NCBI GenBank assembly: GCA_000773965.1
Contig: JRUP01000002.1
Span: forward strand, 286,640-350,639
DNA length: 64,000 nt
Reading direction: 5' to 3'
From: Enterobacter cancerogenus
GTDB lineage: Bacteria > Pseudomonadota > Gammaproteobacteria > Enterobacterales > Enterobacteriaceae
Under the pieces are notes generated by a model that made no database searches, was not told where the DNA came from, and saw only the letters and a list, made by a program, of their open reading frames with translations. This document shows, in pieces, positions 9,500-39,066 of this stretch. Numbering within the stretch: position 1 is the stretch's first letter; each line of letters begins with the position of its first letter. The position numbers were made by a program, and so were the translations under genes.

Positions 9500-9654
9500 C
9501 AGGTCGGGTTCTCTTAAGTGACTGCGCAATATCGAAATAACCGGGGCAGTGTGCCATAAGTTCAGGATAGCAGGTAGCCACCGATGTCACACCGCGACCA
9601 TGCCGTTGACGCGTGCTAAAGTAGATGCGCAACGTTAACGACAAGGACAGGTTC

Positions 9655-11364
9655 ATGAATAACAACACCTCATACCCTACACTGCTGGCTGAACTGCGCC
9701 GCCTCGTCGGCCCTTCACACCTGTTAACTGAGGCGGAACAAACCGCACGCTATCGTAAGGGTTTCCGCTCCGGTGAAGGCGATGCGCTAGCGGTGGTGTT
9801 CCCCGGCTCCTTGCTGGAATTGTGGCGGATATTGCAGGCGCTGGTGCAGGCCGATGCGGTGATTCTGATGCAGGCCGCCAACACCGGCCTGACCGAAGGC
9901 TCCACGCCTAACGGCAATGATTACGATCGCCCGGTGGTGATCATCAGCACCTTGCGCCTCGATAAATTGCAGCTGATCGAGGGCGGCAATCAGATTCTGG
10001 CCTTCCCTGGCAGCACCCTTTATCAGCTGGAAAAAGCCCTTAAGCCGCTGGGACGTGAACCACACTCGGTGATCGGTTCCTCATGCATCGGTGCATCGGT
10101 GATGGGCGGGATTTGTAATAACTCGGGTGGTTCGCTGATCAAGCGCGGCCCGGCCTACAGCGAAATGGCGCTTTATGCGCAGATTGATGCCGACGGCAAA
10201 CTGAAGCTGGTCAATCATCTCGGCATGGATCTCGGCCACTCGCCGGAAGAGATGCTCGGTCGACTGGATGACGATCGCTGGCAGCAGAGCGATGTGCGCT
10301 GGGATGAACGTCATGCTTCAGATCATGAATATGCAGAACGCGTGCGCGATATCCATGCGGATACACCCGCTCGCTTCAACGCCGATGAGCGCCGCCTGTT
10401 CGAGGCTTCGGGTTGCGCGGGCAAACTGGCGGTATTCGCCGTGCGTCTTGATACCTTCCCCAGCGAACCGAAGCAGCAGGTGTTTTATATTGGCACTAAC
10501 GATCCTGTGGTATTGGGCGATCTGCGCCGCCATATTCTGGCCGAGTTTAAAAACTTACCGGTAGCGGGCGAATACATGCACCGCGACATTTTCGATATCG
10601 CCGAAGTGTACGGCAAAGACACTTTTGTGATGATCGACAAGCTCGGCACCGACAAAATGCCGCTGTTCTTCACGCTGAAAGGTCGGGTGGATGCCTGGCT
10701 GGGTAAGCTGAGTTTTGTGAAACCGCACTTCACCGATCGCGTATTGCAACGCATCAGCGGTTGGTTACCTGCGCATCTGCCGAAACGCATGAAGCAGTAT
10801 CGCGATAAGTTTGAGCATCACCTGATGCTGAAAATGTCCGGTGAAGGCGTAGCGGAAGCGCAGGAGTATTTGCACGAATACTTCCGCGAAGGCGGTGGCG
10901 AGTTCTTTGCCTGTGACGGCAAGGAAGGCGCACATGCTTTCCTGCATCGCTTCGCCGCTGCCGGTGCCGCGGTGCGCTACCACGCGGTGCATGCGGATGA
11001 AGTGGAAGATATTCTGGCGCTGGATATCGCGCTGCGCCGTAACGATCAGGATTGGTTTGAGCGCTTACCCGCCGAGTTCGACAACGATCTGAGCCATCGC
11101 CTTTATTACGGCCACTTCTTCTGTCATGTCTTCCACCAGGATTACATCGTGAAGAAAGGCGTGGATGCGCATGCGTTGAAGGAGAAGATGCTGGCGATCC
11201 TCAGCGAACGCGGTGCCGAGTATCCGGCTGAGCATAACGTCGGGCATCTGTATCAGGCAAAACCGCAGTTGCAGGCGTTTTATCGTCAGCTGGATCCGAC
11301 CAATACCTTTAATCCGGGGATCGGTAAAACCAGCAAACAGAAAGGTTGGGCGGTTAAGGCTTGA
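9655..11364 (+). CDS. dld: Quinone-dependent D-lactate dehydrogenase
   Basis: This is a peripheral-membrane flavoprotein of 569 residues that oxidises D-lactate to pyruvate and feeds electrons to quinone. The N-terminal FAD-binding domain carries the phosphate-binding segment MQAANTGLTEGSTPNG and the SSCIGASVMGGICNNSGG loop. The C-terminal membrane-binding cap ends with FNPGIGKTSK. Length and gene neighbours match E. coli dld. The ATG at 9655 follows AAGGACAGG; an in-frame start at 9625 lacks a ribosome site. It is divergent from bglX. The repeat-dense segment downstream would form its 3' untranslated region if transcription continues. Confidence 0.95.
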   Translation: MNNNTSYPTLLAELRRLVGPSHLLTEAEQTARYRKGFRSGEGDALAVVFPGSLLELWRILQALVQADAVILMQAANTGLTEGSTPNGNDYDRPVVIISTLRLDKLQLIEGGNQILAFPGSTLYQLEKALKPLGREPHSVIGSSCIGASVMGGICNNSGGSLIKRGPAYSEMALYAQIDADGKLKLVNHLGMDLGHSPEEMLGRLDDDRWQQSDVRWDERHASDHEYAERVRDIHADTPARFNADERRLFEASGCAGKLAVFAVRLDTFPSEPKQQVFYIGTNDPVVLGDLRRHILAEFKNLPVAGEYMHRDIFDIAEVYGKDTFVMIDKLGTDKMPLFFTLKGRVDAWLGKLSFVKPHFTDRVLQRISGWLPAHLPKRMKQYRDKFEHHLMLKMSGEGVAEAQEYLHEYFREGGGEFFACDGKEGAHAFLHRFAAAGAAVRYHAVHADEVEDILALDIALRRNDQDWFERLPAEFDNDLSHRLYYGHFFCHVFHQDYIVKKGVDAHALKEKMLAILSERGAEYPAEHNVGHLYQAKPQLQAFYRQLDPTNTFNPGIGKTSKQKGWAVKA

Positions 11365-11415
11365 AAGTACATATGGACGTCCTGAGAGCTGTAATACCTG
11401 TCAGGTAATCGTCAA

Positions 11416-11523
11416 GTGATAACGCACGCTGGTGTCGTTCATGGGTTGGCTGTCCTCGCGCCGGGTGATAACGCAGTCTGGTGCCGTACAGGGGCTGGCG
11501 GTCCTCGCGCCGCTACGCGGTCC
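11416..11523. repeat. Tandem pair of the dispersed GC-rich repeat
   Basis: Two related 49-bp units follow each other. Both start GTGATAACGCA and end TCCTCGCGCCG (11416-11464 and 11465-11513). The second, with a short extension to 11523, is the inverted counterpart of the copy at 2291-2355. No gene is visible in the 576 bp between dld and the MscS-type gene. Confidence 0.75.
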
Positions 11524-11669
11524 CTTCACTTCATTCGTCTGCCTCACGGAACGGCGGGGGATGGCACTTCCTGTGCCGCCCCGCCTTACGCCCGCGTCCT
11601 TCGGGCTATCCTGGCAGACTCATTGCGTTCAGCGCTGCGGATTGCCAGCCCCTGTACGGCACCAGCCTG
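11474..11669. repeat. Long inverted repeat with 26-bp arms
   Basis: The arms 11474-11499 and 11644-11669 are complementary at 25 of 26 positions, with a perfect 22-base core (11478-11499 with 11644-11665). They enclose about 144 bp. Pairing continues imperfectly inward (TCC-GC-GC-ACGC on both sides). As RNA this would fold into one large stem holding the inner hairpins described separately. Confidence 0.8.
11537..11619. other. Three-way-junction-like fold inside the inverted repeat
   Basis: GTCTGCC (11537-11543) pairs with GGCAGAC (11613-11619). Inside lie two hairpins. The first pairs GGCGGGG (11553-11559) with CCCCGCC (11579-11585), topped by GGCAC/GTGCC (11563-11567 with 11573-11577). The second pairs GCCCG (11590-11594) with CGGGC (11602-11606). 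This looks like structured RNA or a cruciform rather than coding sequence. It is not a tRNA: no T-arm or CCA is present. Confidence 0.5.
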
Positions 11670-11759
11670 CTCTTAAGCTTCAGTGCGTGCTGTTAAAAAG
11701 GGCACAATTGTTGAGGCCAGAGCACCTCTGCTGATGCAAGGGGCAATCCGCAGCGCTGA
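11629..11759. repeat. Perfect 18-bp inverted repeat overlapping the larger one
   Basis: TCAGCGCTGCGGATTGCC (11629-11646) and its exact reverse complement at 11742-11759 form a stem with a 95-base interior. The left arm abuts and slightly overlaps the right arm of the 26-bp inverted repeat, so the two foldings compete in part. Confidence 0.75.
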
Positions 11760-11919
11760 GGCTTTTACGATGGGCCAGGAGCCAGGCGCAGGGATGCGAC
11801 TGGCAGTTCGGGTTGGCCTGGATGGCCTTACCCGAACGGTCCGTAGGCACGGCGTGGAAGCCGAAGGCACCGCGTCAGCGGCGCGAGGACGGCCCGGCAG
11901 CAGCAGAGGTGCTCGGGCC
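11715..11919. repeat. 19-bp inverted repeat plus a further repeat copy
   Basis: Bases 11715-11733 and 11901-11919 are complementary at 18 of 19 positions (core GAGCACCTCTGCTG). Between them lie a short inverted pair, GTTCGGGT (11806-11813) with ACCCGAAC (11830-11837), and at 11868-11897 another partial copy of the dispersed repeat in the orientation of 2291-2355. The stretch continues without a gene to the MscS-type stop at 11941. Confidence 0.7.
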
Positions 11920-11940
11920 CGCACTCAGCCACCGTTGTGA

Positions 11941-14385
11941 TTATGGCAGTTGCTCGCCCTCTTCCTGCGTGGCCGCTGGCACGGCTCGACGTTCAATGAT
12001 CATCGTCTGCGGTGTGGACAGCACAATGCCCTCTTTGCGCAGGCGCGTCAGAATATCGAACAGCAGGTCACTCTTAGCGCTGGAGATCTGACGCTGGCCC
12101 GCCACGTTGCCGGTGACGCTCAACACGATGCCCGCAGAGGTCAAATCCTTGAATGAGACGGATGGCTCAGGCGTGTCCAGAATGCGCTCGTTCTCCTGGT
12201 AAACCTCCAGCAGAATCTCACGCACGCGCACCGGATCAATATCCAGCGGGAAGGTCAACATAATGGTCACAACACCCTGTGCATTGCCCATGGTGGCGTT
12301 ACGCACGTTCTGTGAGATGAACTGTGAGTTCGGCACAATCACCGTGGATTTATCACTCAGCTGAATCTCGGTGGCGCGCACATTGATACGGCGAATATCC
12401 CCTTCAATGCCGCTGATACTCACCAGATCGCCCACTTTTACCGGGCGCTCGGTTAACAGAATCAAACCGGAGATAAAGTTCTTCACGATCTCCTGTAAGC
12501 CGAAACCGATACCGACCGACAAGGCACTGACGATCCACGCCAGTTTGTTCCACTGCAGGCCCATAATCGACAGCGTCAGCAGAATGATCAGCACATAGCC
12601 GATATTGCTGAACAGCGTCACCAGCGACACACGCATGCCCACGTCCATGGTGGTTTTTGGCAGGAAATCTTTATCCAGCCAGCGACGCACCGAACGCAGC
12701 ACGTAGATGCCCACCACCAGACACAGAATGGCATTCACCATATGCGCCGGCACGATGTTCAACGACTCCAGCCCTTTGCCGCCCCAGAACTCAATCACTT
12801 TCTGAATCAGCTCGATCGGCGTTGAAGAGGCGAAGGTGCCGTTTAGCAGCGCCAGCACCACAATACCGATCAGTGCGGTTTTACCAACTGCGCCCAGCAG
12901 CGTAGCCGCCTGCTGCAGATGGCGTTCATCAATGTTTAACGAGGTCTGCAGACGTTTGCCGGTGGCGTTGTTAGTAGAAAACAGGCTTTCACAGCCGTCA
13001 TTGATCAAATGGCTGAGGAAGTAGAACGAGCCAAACAGAATGCCGCACCAAATCACCTCATAACCGAGGAAGCGGGCCAGCGTGACATAACCGATGATCA
13101 ACGAAATCAGAATCGCCAGCGCGGTCAGGGTCAACGCCAGCTGAACCAGCCCAACGATCGTGGGACGCGCTTCCGGTGGATTCCCCTCTTGCGCCAGGCG
13201 ACGGCGCACGCGGTTGGTACGCATGCTAATCGCCAGGCCAGTGGTACCGATCAGCAGCGCCGTCAGGCCGTTGGCGAAGATGGTGGTGTTCAGGCTGGTG
13301 CCGACGCTGTAGTTAAAGGACTCTGCGGTCTGGAAAATAAACACCAGAGCAGCGGTAATCGGCGGGAACGGCTTCAGCGCCTGCGCGACTTCATTGGAGA
13401 TGCTTGGCAATCGCCAGCTCGGACGGCGCGTCGACAGGAAAGCTCGGCCCAAGCCGGCAATCAAACCGCAATAGACGCTGAGTTGTACCAAACGCTCAAC
13501 AAAATCCTGCACGTCAGTCGAGACTTCATCACGGCGGGTAAACGCCAGCGCGATAAAGTTAAAGGTCAGCACCACCGCGGCCAAGGTGGTCAGCGCAATC
13601 GCTGCCGCCAGGAAACTACGGCGCAAACGCCCTTCCGGCATTTTGTGGATGCTCACCCAGGCGAGAAACTCTTCGCTGTAACGACGCCCCAGCGTCATCA
13701 CCAGCATGGCCGCAATCAACCAGCCGATAGTGCCAAAGCGCCAACCAGGCTCCCAGGAGAGTGCAGCGGTGTCCTGCAATTCAGCGATAAAATCGCTGAT
13801 TTTCTCGCCATCTAAATCCTGACGGCTGACCATGGGCGCCCAAAAGCGCGGCCCCAGGATGCTACCGGAGTTCAGCGCCAGCTGGCTCTTCAACTGGTCA
13901 CGGCGCAGGTTGACGATCTGGGAGGAAAGCACCAGCGCGCCATTTTTAATGCCATCGGCCTGCTTGATTTGATCGTCCAGTTTACTTTTCTGGCTCTCCA
14001 GCGAGGCGCGTTTGCGCGTCACTTCCGGCGTTTCTTTCACGCCACTGTCCGGTTTCGGTGCCGGCCCCAGCACCGCTAGCTGCGCATCCAGTTGCTGACG
14101 CTGCGGGATCAGCGCCTGGCCTAAAGTTTCTGCGTTACCGGATAGCTCCAGCGCCATCTCATTGAGCTGGTTGAGCTGGCTCTCATTGGTATCGCCTGAC
14201 ACCTGGCCTTTAATCTTGTCGAGGATTTTCTGCATTTTCGGCAGCTCAACCGCAGGATTGACCTTTGGTGCGGCGTCCTCTTGCTGAGCCGCGGCGGCAG
14301 TGTTGTCATCCGCGTAGCTCAGTGCCGGGCTTAACAGCACCAGCAGCAGTATAAATGGGGTAAATAGCGAACGAAGCTTGTACAT
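11941..14385 (-). CDS. MscS-type mechanosensitive channel with N-terminal DUF3772-like domain
   Basis: This 814-residue inner-membrane protein opens an ion or solute pore when the membrane is stretched, protecting against osmotic downshock. A signal peptide (MYKLRSLFTPFILLLVLLSP) leads to a periplasmic coiled-coil region of about 170 residues resembling DUF3772. About ten to eleven membrane helices follow. The C-terminal MscS core has the pore-helix region ALSVGIGFGLQEIVKNFISG and the beta domain (RPVKVGDLVSISGIEGDI). It is shorter than the large paralogues MscK and MscM (about 1100 residues). The ATG at 14385 begins the signal peptide; the longer frame to 14496 does not. It sits between dld and pbpG, which are adjacent in E. 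coli. Confidence 0.85.
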   Translation of the reverse strand: MYKLRSLFTPFILLLVLLSPALSYADDNTAAAAQQEDAAPKVNPAVELPKMQKILDKIKGQVSGDTNESQLNQLNEMALELSGNAETLGQALIPQRQQLDAQLAVLGPAPKPDSGVKETPEVTRKRASLESQKSKLDDQIKQADGIKNGALVLSSQIVNLRRDQLKSQLALNSGSILGPRFWAPMVSRQDLDGEKISDFIAELQDTAALSWEPGWRFGTIGWLIAAMLVMTLGRRYSEEFLAWVSIHKMPEGRLRRSFLAAAIALTTLAAVVLTFNFIALAFTRRDEVSTDVQDFVERLVQLSVYCGLIAGLGRAFLSTRRPSWRLPSISNEVAQALKPFPPITAALVFIFQTAESFNYSVGTSLNTTIFANGLTALLIGTTGLAISMRTNRVRRRLAQEGNPPEARPTIVGLVQLALTLTALAILISLIIGYVTLARFLGYEVIWCGILFGSFYFLSHLINDGCESLFSTNNATGKRLQTSLNIDERHLQQAATLLGAVGKTALIGIVVLALLNGTFASSTPIELIQKVIEFWGGKGLESLNIVPAHMVNAILCLVVGIYVLRSVRRWLDKDFLPKTTMDVGMRVSLVTLFSNIGYVLIILLTLSIMGLQWNKLAWIVSALSVGIGFGLQEIVKNFISGLILLTERPVKVGDLVSISGIEGDIRRINVRATEIQLSDKSTVIVPNSQFISQNVRNATMGNAQGVVTIMLTFPLDIDPVRVREILLEVYQENERILDTPEPSVSFKDLTSAGIVLSVTGNVAGQRQISSAKSDLLFDILTRLRKEGIVLSTPQTMIIERRAVPAATQEEGEQLP

Positions 14386-14560
14386 ATGAGTGAGATTCCA
14401 GCGCAATGACAGCCGATAAATGCCAGTTAACTTTAGATGGCGGCCAGTGTAGAGCGTAGCCGAAGCGGAAACTATAGGAATGAAGCGCGAAAACATTGGT
14501 GCTGACGATTAGGGATTTTTTTGGTCATTCGGGAGTACTTATCCCGCCAATCGGAAGCAC

Positions 14561-15541: not shown

Positions 15542-15683
15542 CGTGTCAAAAAAATCCGGTAAGGAGTTTTGCGCCGTGTTTAAGACACAGGCCGCGCGCA
15601 TCAAACCAGACGGGATGCGGGCTGGCAGCAGCATAATACGCGCTTATCTGCGAAATTTCTTAGGTAGATTGTTTCTGAGCGTT

Positions 15684-37894: not shown

Positions 37895-38881
37895 TTAGCC
37901 GCCAATGAAAGAGAGGTTTTGTGTCATGCCGGTGTTGCCCTGATGCAGGAAATGCGTCTGCTTTTTCTGCCCGAGACTGTGGGCGATGCGGGCCTGTAGC
38001 TCGCCCTGCTGATCGTCGGATGCCAGTAAATCGCGCAGCGAGACGCCGCCGTCGCCGAACAGGCACAGATGAAGATTGCCCATGGCTGACACGCGCAGAC
38101 GGTTGCAACTGGCGCAGAAATCTTTTTCGTAAGGCATGATCAAACCGACTTCGCCCTGATAGTCAGGATGGCGGAACACCTGCGCCGGACCGTCACTGCG
38201 ACCGCGCGACTGGCGTTGCCAACCCTGCATGATCAGTTGATCGCGAATCACCTCACCCGAGATGTGATGACGACGGAACAGATCACCGCCCTCGCCGGTT
38301 TCCATCAGTTCGATAAAGCGCAGCTGAATTGGACGGATGCGGATCCAGTCGAGGAAGGTCGCCAGGCTGTGGCTGTTGAGATCGCGCATCAGCACGCTGT
38401 TGACTTTGACCTTCTCGAACCCGGCGTCAAACGCGGCATCAATTCCGGCCATCACTTCCGCGAATTTGTCCTGGCCGGTGATGGCGTGAAACTGGCGCGC
38501 ATCCAGGCTATCGACACTAACGTTAATGTGGGTGAGCCCGGCATCACGCCACGCGCGCACATCTCGCGCCATTCGGTAGCCGTTGGTGGTCATGGCGATC
38601 TGGCGAATGGCGGCGTTTTCACGCACTGCTGCGATGATATCGGTGAAGTCGCGGCGCATAGAGGGTTCGCCGCCGGTGAGACGCACTTTTTCCGTGCCCG
38701 CGGCCGCAAAGGCACGCGTCACGCGTCGAATCTCGTCCAGCGAGAGGAAACTTTTGTTGTGATTACCGTTCGGTTTATAGCCATCGGGTAAACAGTAGGT
38801 ACAACGGAAGTTACACACATCCGTGACCGACAGGCGCAGATAGTAGAAGCTGCGCGCATAGGCATCTGTAAATTGTGGCAC
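37895..38881 (-). CDS. moaA: GTP 3',8-cyclase MoaA
   Basis: This radical-SAM enzyme of 328 residues converts GTP to cyclo-dihydro-GTP, the first step of molybdenum-cofactor synthesis. The N-terminal cluster motif is CNFRCTYC, followed by the GGE motif in [13 protein letters not shown]. The C-terminal cluster residues lie in CASCNRLR and a later Cys. The conserved Gly-Gly C-terminus is present. I start at a GTG (38881; [18 protein letters not shown]) by alignment with the E. coli N-terminus; GGAAAGG precedes it. The apparent frame to 39052 is riboswitch leader. It is the first gene of moaABCDE. Confidence 0.95.
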
Positions 38882-38884
38882 CTG

Positions 38885-38996
38885 AACACCTTTCCAAATA
38901 CGGGAGATGCAGTCATTTCTTTCTGCACCCTGGCAGCGATGCTGCGGCCAGGCATCCATATCGTTATGACTTAGGCATGCAAGGCTTGGGAGTCTG
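38885..38996 (-). ncRNA. Molybdenum cofactor (Moco) riboswitch
   Basis: The leader before moaA closely matches the Moco RNA motif as I recall it from E. coli. It contains GACTCCCAAGCC at the 5' side, GGATGCCTGGCCGCAGC pairing with GCTGCCAGGGTGCAG, GAAAGAAATGACTGC, and CTCCCGTATTTGGAAAGGTG running into the ribosome site. The pairing CTGGC.GCAGC / GCTGCCAG is exact. Such leaders shut down translation of moa when cofactor is plentiful. Confidence 0.9.
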
Positions 38997-39066
38997 TTGT
39001 CATTATGGACAACACGGTTAATTCGAATGGTAGCGCGATTTCTCCCTCGCATCCATCAGTGAATTT

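Follow-up and report, generated by a model that had tools for sequence, protein, structure and literature searches.

A decayed IS4-type Pantoea MITE carrying paired structured RNA modules in the gap between dld and an MscS-type channel gene

RNAs of the CsrB/CsrC/RsmX/Y/Z type sequester the regulator CsrA and contain several GGA motifs, some of them in hairpin loops. The accessible text of a paper that names such RNAs proposes that the TwoAYGGAY family binds CsrA, its loops matching the CsrA site (PMC4333381). In its 2010 discovery paper, TwoAYGGAY had been presented, in the portion available, as a probable RNA for which neither cis-regulation nor a riboswitch function was considered likely (PMC2864571). 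An origin by terminator read-through is described, in the accessible part of the source, for RrA, RrB, and RrF of the Escherichia coli rRNA operons, which have GGA motifs and of which RrB binds CsrA in vitro (PMC8144298). On the side of mobile elements, a described case is the miniature inverted-repeat transposable element (MITE) BrickBuilt of Porphyromonas gingivalis, for which the available text reports predicted long stem-loops and tandem repeats, with predicted rho-independent terminators and/or polyadenylation sites flanking 10 of 19 cases (PMC4596501).

The locus that we compare with these systems lies in a 64,000-nucleotide stretch of DNA (here, the window; contig JRUP01000002.1), in the gap between dld (D-lactate dehydrogenase; positions 9625 to 11364, + strand) and an MscS-type channel gene (11941 to 14496, − strand), two open reading frames (ORFs) that we name as in the initial annotation and that converge, each reading toward the gap. 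That annotation had drawn attention to three interlocking inverted repeats in the gap, and these repeats are genuine. The 26-bp repeat (11474 to 11499, complementary to 11644 to 11669) has one mismatch, and a repeat search extends it to 32 nt at 91%; the 18-bp repeat (11629 to 11646 and 11742 to 11759) is a perfect complement; and the 19-bp repeat (11715 to 11733 and 11901 to 11919), in which we found one mismatch, is extendable to 23 nt at 91% by the same kind of search. The first two share positions 11644 to 11646, as had been stated, and the unusual density of repeats also held up: the window contains just four exact inverted repeats with arms of 14 bp or longer (loop up to 400), and all four fall within this patch. 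The repeat search further recovered an inverted repeat at 11497 to 11514 and 11877 to 11894 and a direct repeat with a 49-bp spacing (11416 to 11463 and 11465 to 11512; 85%). Chance as the origin of the repeats is ruled out: of 1,000 dinucleotide shuffles of 11366 to 11945, a single one gave an arm of at least 14 bp and none (0/1,000) gave an arm of at least 15 bp.

Comparison with close relatives delimits a decayed inserted element at 11390 to 11926, a stretch that is missing from the orthologous gap; the empty sites (e.g., in genomes G056 and G021) align to 11389 and again from 11927. The element is absent in 20/20 relatives, namely, those in which both flanking genes match close together, and their gap measures 35 to 131 bp. 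As all 20 carry both genes side by side in this manner, the proposed tie between the repeats and an inserted channel gene found no support. In the closest relatives, the gap holds a single terminator-like hairpin, ATGGGCGGCCCGAGAGCCGCCCAT or nearly so. The window has this hairpin in an interrupted form, with its left half (11373 to 11391, + strand) ending at 11391, the element starting at 11392, and a remnant of the right half, recognized by comparison with the relatives and adjoining the end of the channel gene (11927 to 11940, + strand), resuming near 11927. The left end of the element is kept, its terminal inverted repeat TAATACCTGTCAGGTAAT (11392 to 11409, + strand) differing at three positions from the family sequence TAATGCYNGTCAGTTAAG; on the right, both the terminal repeat and the segment preceding it are missing, and, with this end deleted, a target duplication is not recognizable in this copy. 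These observations show that an IS4-type element inserted between dld and the channel gene, within the terminator-like hairpin present there, and that its right end was subsequently lost. With the two flanking genes set aside, no ORF over the insertion exceeds 100 amino acids, and the small indels between copies of the modules described below speak against coding by these ORFs. Elsewhere in the window, a short relic of the same family, corresponding to the end of one module (L, see below), occupies 2287 to 2372, again between convergent gene ends, those of two ORFs, one for a LacI-type regulator and one resembling a chemotaxis receptor (the gene types and the right edge of the relic were judged by eye).

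The copies in related genomes span TAATGCYNGTCAGTTAAG to its reverse complement, and the terminal inverted repeats of the complete ones are 18 bp long and match those of IS4-group insertion sequences. Both terminal repeats were present in 50 of the 80 loci examined (49 distinct copies), 18 of the 80 having been chosen beforehand for already visible paired ends. These two-ended copies measure 343 to 823 bp, with 39 of the 50 between 519 and 618 bp. A target duplication of 10 to 14 bp flanks 32 of the 49 distinct copies, against 7 of 2,352 mismatched-flank controls, and none is recognizable in the other 17. When the targets were rejoined, assuming 12 bp for the 17 copies without a duplication, the mean best stem was 7.1 bp versus 3.8 bp in a control consisting of a single-base shuffle; a stem of at least 6 bp was obtained for 30/49 targets and none of 6 bp for 19/49, and 29/49 have, within 30 bases, a stretch of five A to the left or one of five T to the right. 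As a yardstick, E. coli IS4, in which the 18-mer of the family recurs, has the ends TAATGCCGATCAGTTAAG and TAATGCCAGTCAGTTAAG (right) and a 12-bp duplication. One of the genomes (G044) contains eight copies of a 1,421-bp IS4-group element with a 459-codon frame and the very ends of the family, and its targets, judged by eye, are hairpins. The IS4-group ends and the target duplications, often in terminator-like hairpins, thus identify the element as an IS4-type MITE: it shares its ends with an autonomous element, makes duplications of IS4 size, stays below 1 kb, has no transposase gene, and occurs in many copies. The PF13006 transposase was found in 2 of the 16 genomes searched, in one of them as a broken frame only, and was absent from the other 14, the copy-rich G057 and G042 included; the copies in those 14 genomes are therefore without a visible helper.

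The inverted repeats of the patch belong to an element that is dispersed in Pantoea. A search with the patch uncovered a family, with 54 matching pieces in the window's own genome, and matches extend to 44/60 genomes of the genus (E ≤ 0.001, with 10 candidates scored per genome; some of the matches are weak). All matching plasmid records (46/46) are from Pantoea, as are all 45/45 stretches recovered in a scan of named genomes for intact left ends, which are distributed over P. agglomerans, "P. formicae," P. latae, P. rwandensis, P. conspicua, P. rodasii, and "P. gossypiicola," with several intact left ends each in P. agglomerans HJS002 and NBRC 102470. This distribution suggests that the window, too, is Pantoea DNA. 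The patch had no match in 20,395 E. coli records (E, 1e-5) or in 50,697 phage records (E, 1e-5), and the latter result led us to rule out a phage origin. Copies share a mean identity of 92 to 96% within each of four genomes and of 80% between genomes, values that look as they would after separate recent bursts. In the window's own genome the copies are decayed, with both ends present in 0 of the 12 examined.

The payload of the element consists of two modules of ~210 nt that point apart, L on the − strand and R on the + strand. They are diverged inverted paralogues, identical in 110 of 158 columns, and the 26-bp and 19-bp repeats turn out to be parts of their respective closing stems, which differ in sequence and each of which pairs. 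Module L extends over 11468 to 11674 (−), with a core model match at 11502 to 11641 (−) and a GGA in the loops of both of its hairpins (HP1, 11597 to 11599; HP2, 11569 to 11571); the arms of its closing stem (P1), 11473 to 11504 and 11639 to 11670, pair with each other, and an extra tandem copy of its left edge, at the 49-bp spacing of the direct repeat, precedes it at 11416 to 11463 (+). Module R extends over 11710 to 11925 (+), with a core model match at 11747 to 11889 (+), loop GGAs at 11792 to 11794 (HP1) and 11820 to 11822 (HP2), and a closing stem (P1) formed by 11715 to 11737 and 11897 to 11919. The two segments of the 18-bp repeat lie near the 5′ ends of L (11629 to 11646) and R (11742 to 11759) and are complementary because the modules are inverted paralogues.

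In an Rfam scan, the window copy matched TwoAYGGAY (RF01731) in the R half only, over a two-hairpin core at 11776 to 11844 (+), with 40.1 bits and hence below the gathering score of 43. Among 14 other copies of the element scanned, six matched above gathering and eight had no above-threshold match; in two of the copies, both halves exceeded it (L188, 47.7 and 44 bits; L191, 48.2 and 43.6 bits). Matches of the window copy to microRNA families were dismissed as lying far under threshold. The window contains other RNAs as well, a molybdenum cofactor riboswitch at 38870 to 39004 (−; 87.8 bits) and a Peptidase-S11 RNA at 15551 to 15640 (−; 57.1 bits), the latter at the start of an ORF that by eye is PBP7-like.

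We aligned 26 of 75 R modules and 30 of 86 L modules, picked to spread across genomes, and in both sets the modules are predicted to fold as long rods with two hairpins. Pairs in which both sides change number 27 of 64 in R and 31 of 61 in L, and the paired positions are filled by pairing bases in 96.0 and 95.9% of the cells, respectively. The covariation is 0.262 in R and 0.284 in L, compared with 0.101 and 0.118 after shuffling and 0.026 to 0.055 for slid structures; since the tested structures were predicted from the same alignments, they are favored over the slid versions, though insufficiently for gaps of such size. None of the five structure measures was reached by any shuffle (0/500). 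Pairing that is not conserved had been named in the initial annotation as an observation that would speak against a structured RNA; what we find among the copies is conserved pairing with compensatory changes. Further, GGA occupies 104 of 112 hairpin loops of 4 to 10 nt (26/26, 24/26, 28/30, and 26/30 sequences, loop by loop), while it occurs in about 10% of all 6-nt windows. The modules thereby display what defines TwoAYGGAY, namely, two hairpins, conserved GGA loops, and covarying stems. The covariation and the Rfam match made us abandon our first reading, a plain palindromic MITE.

Both modules of the window copy are still predicted to fold. For a full read-through RNA, pairing between L and R is predicted (−299.3 kcal/mol; z, −8.8), while R and L folded separately give predicted z values of −6.4 and −9.5; alternative folds are thus possible, with L-R pairing on the whole + strand opposed to each half folding alone. 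Of the three alternatives raised in the initial annotation, two hold together: a structured RNA, by the pairing conserved among copies, and a degenerate nonautonomous element, by its ends and target duplications, its copies elsewhere, and the empty sites. The identity of the patch as a decayed IS4-type Pantoea MITE is nearly certain, and so is the structure of the RNA that it carries.

The divergent arrangement of the modules recurs. For finding modules, a combined L+R model (R1; 28 pairs kept) was used, which served this purpose only and not as evidence of structure. In the window's own genome, the core model recovered 28 modules that make up ten opposite-strand pairs and eight singles, and 10/10 pairs are divergent, the − module lying to the left of the + module in each (one pair involves a weak, overlapping match). 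Of 45 loci searched with the core model, 36 had a match and 13 had matches on both strands, and in 13/13 of the latter the nearest pair is divergent; one locus (L217) has three copies on the same strand. RF01731 itself was detected (E ≤ 0.001) in 50/60 genomes of the genus (up to 37 matches; 44 genomes above the gathering score), in 30/198 genomes of the family (16 above), and in 24/369 genomes of the class, often in several copies (16 above). Divergent module pairs recur in other Gammaproteobacteria, and, among the matches listed, modules of three genomes of one family (G524, G413, and G618) and of one genome of another (G496) lie within longer palindromes with ends like GTTTCGCACGCC, which in the first family measure ~580 to 660 bp. 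The RNA module thus probably predates the IS4-type vehicle. Among the pairs that lack IS4 ends in the window's own group, some are common to more than one species.

Some individual loci are worth recording. One in another genus of the family (L216; G145:C1:1430500-1434500) has three tandem divergent pairs of the TwoAYGGAY type, ~550 bp apart, and in other families of the class, loci L289 to L307, among the matches listed, are TwoAYGGAY palindromic repeats, several with ends like GTTTCGCACGCC / GGCGTGCGAAAC. In five copies without IS4 ends (L191, L193, L196, L198, and L200), the module edges are bordered by minisatellites, e.g., CCCTTAG and CAGTTAAG repeats; in L191 and L198, the L edge itself is also repeated in tandem (~34 bp) at the border.

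We favor, with moderate confidence, the reading that this Pantoea MITE with TwoAYGGAY modules is transcribed by read-through and acts as a set of CsrA decoys or CsrA-responsive 3′ ends; a role as a mobile decoy for CsrA, transcribed by read-through, is plausible, and CsrA binding, expression, and an effect on the cell are what we infer. Copies would jump by means of an IS4-group transposase acting in trans and would be transcribed by read-through from neighboring genes, given that they frequently land in terminators and have no recognizable promoter. As the modules point outward, a transcript entering from either side would hold one sense module, whose GGA hairpins would bind CsrA. In a simple scan of an intact copy and the window, neither a sigma-70-like promoter nor a terminator-like site was found, and the lack of such a promoter, together with insertion at gene ends, makes read-through the likeliest putative source of the RNA. 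The modules have GGA motifs in hairpin loops, as expected of CsrA-binding small RNAs. CsrA is encoded in 36/36 tested genomes with matches; it is common in these bacteria, so that its co-occurrence says little. In a full-length transcript, the predicted pairing of L with R could hinder the modules.

The same structured, strand-specific modules may serve something other than CsrA, as stabilizers of transcript ends, as insulators of host genes against the insertion, or as sites of another RNA-binding protein, which we consider possible but on balance unlikely. Structure and strand are supported under this alternative too, and the binding of CsrA itself is predicted; insertion at gene ends, as in the window copy and in the annotated plasmid copies, 5/5 of which lie downstream of at least one gene (two of them being one locus in two strains), would equally suit a function in transcript ends or insulation. 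However, GGA in nearly all of the hairpin loops is a signature of the CsrA type, and the two-hairpin arrangement fits a dimeric protein, as far as the accessible text of PMC4333381 describes it.

Less probable still, and in our judgment improbable, is a purely selfish palindromic MITE without an RNA function, in which the fold would be a feature of the DNA (a cruciform or an aid to transposase access) or a by-product of inverted duplication. The anatomy of a MITE, the palindromic layout, and the likeness of copies within species (92 to 96% in four genomes, versus 80% between), as after separate bursts, all agree with such an element. Palindromy, however, does not predict covarying internal folds in each half, and a bias to one strand also speaks against this reading. 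In G-U-blind structures, cells with G-U exceed those with A-C on the assigned strand by 14:3 in R and 20:9 in L (13:3 and 14:7 when counted by pairs), an excess that favors RNA over a DNA hairpin, though the counts are modest and not independent. With G-U allowed, an excess of G-U over A-C is also present in the antisense folds of A1 and A2 (138:12 and 127:25), and the strand test rests solely on the structures predicted without it. This alternative is further opposed by the occurrence of modules lacking IS4 ends, among the matches listed, at other loci and in other genera and by the conservation of the modules themselves. At two vertically kept loci, these are 0.93 to 0.98 identical, versus 0.73 to 0.86 for the spacer and left flank, though the right flanks (0.89 and 0.91) differ less, and at a third such locus the contrast of module and flank is smaller and absent in one comparison. 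The remaining alternative, in which common GC-rich repeats overlap by chance or as a mosaic and form no unit of their own, has next to no probability and is superfluous. The patch is GC-rich and has a tandem duplication at its left edge, but full-length copies refute this alternative, and the defined ends, duplications, and empty sites and the lack of a 15-bp arm in the shuffles speak against it.

Taken singly, MITEs, IS4 ends, and TwoAYGGAY are already known; among the open-license papers listed, we found no report in which TwoAYGGAY or RNAs that bind CsrA are carried by a MITE or repeat and none of paired TwoAYGGAY repeats. We tentatively put forward a wider proposal, for which the odds are somewhat against us, that TwoAYGGAY, instead of being an RNA gene that stands alone, is half of a widespread, dispersed, and divergently paired class of RNAs in Gammaproteobacteria and that in Pantoea an IS4-type MITE spreads it as orientation-independent CsrA decoys by way of terminators and read-through. 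If this is true, an orphan family described in 2010 without a function would gain a genomic habitat and a testable job, a transposable element would be able to carry and multiply structured RNAs with hairpins of the CsrA type, and the copy number of a mobile element could shift a global regulator. The paired modules would also offer a reason for the hairpins on both strands of such repeats. With many copies per genome and wide differences in copy number between species, the idea is directly testable.

Among the described systems, BrickBuilt likewise combines the anatomy of a MITE with tandem repeats and predicted long stem-loops, but it has other ends, and its authors, in the accessible text, report no Rfam structure match (PMC4596501). 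With IS4 and the IS4 group, the Pantoea MITE shares terminal repeats of the form TAATGCC..GTCAGTTAAG, the size of the target duplication (12 bp in the E. coli copy and 10 to 14 bp in the MITE), and, in the case of the IS4-group element of G044, hairpin targets as judged by eye; it differs in having no transposase gene, with the match confined to the ends and without clear internal similarity, and the E. coli IS4 copy examined is not located in a hairpin. The RrA, RrB, and RrF RNAs have the read-through origin that is proposed here and GGA motifs, but they are located in rRNA operons, and in the available text neither mobility nor divergent pairing is described for them (PMC8144298). The modules resemble RNAs of the CsrB/CsrC/RsmX/Y/Z type in having several GGA motifs, some in hairpin loops, and differ from them in being mobile and present in many copies, in that a promoter was not found in our scan, and in that their link to CsrA is predicted. 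With TwoAYGGAY, the modules share the two-hairpin core, the GGA loops, and the conserved CAGGA before and CGGUCCGU after; here, however, that core belongs to a module of ~210 nt with a long closing stem, and the modules come in divergent pairs, of which a mobile element carries many dispersed copies.
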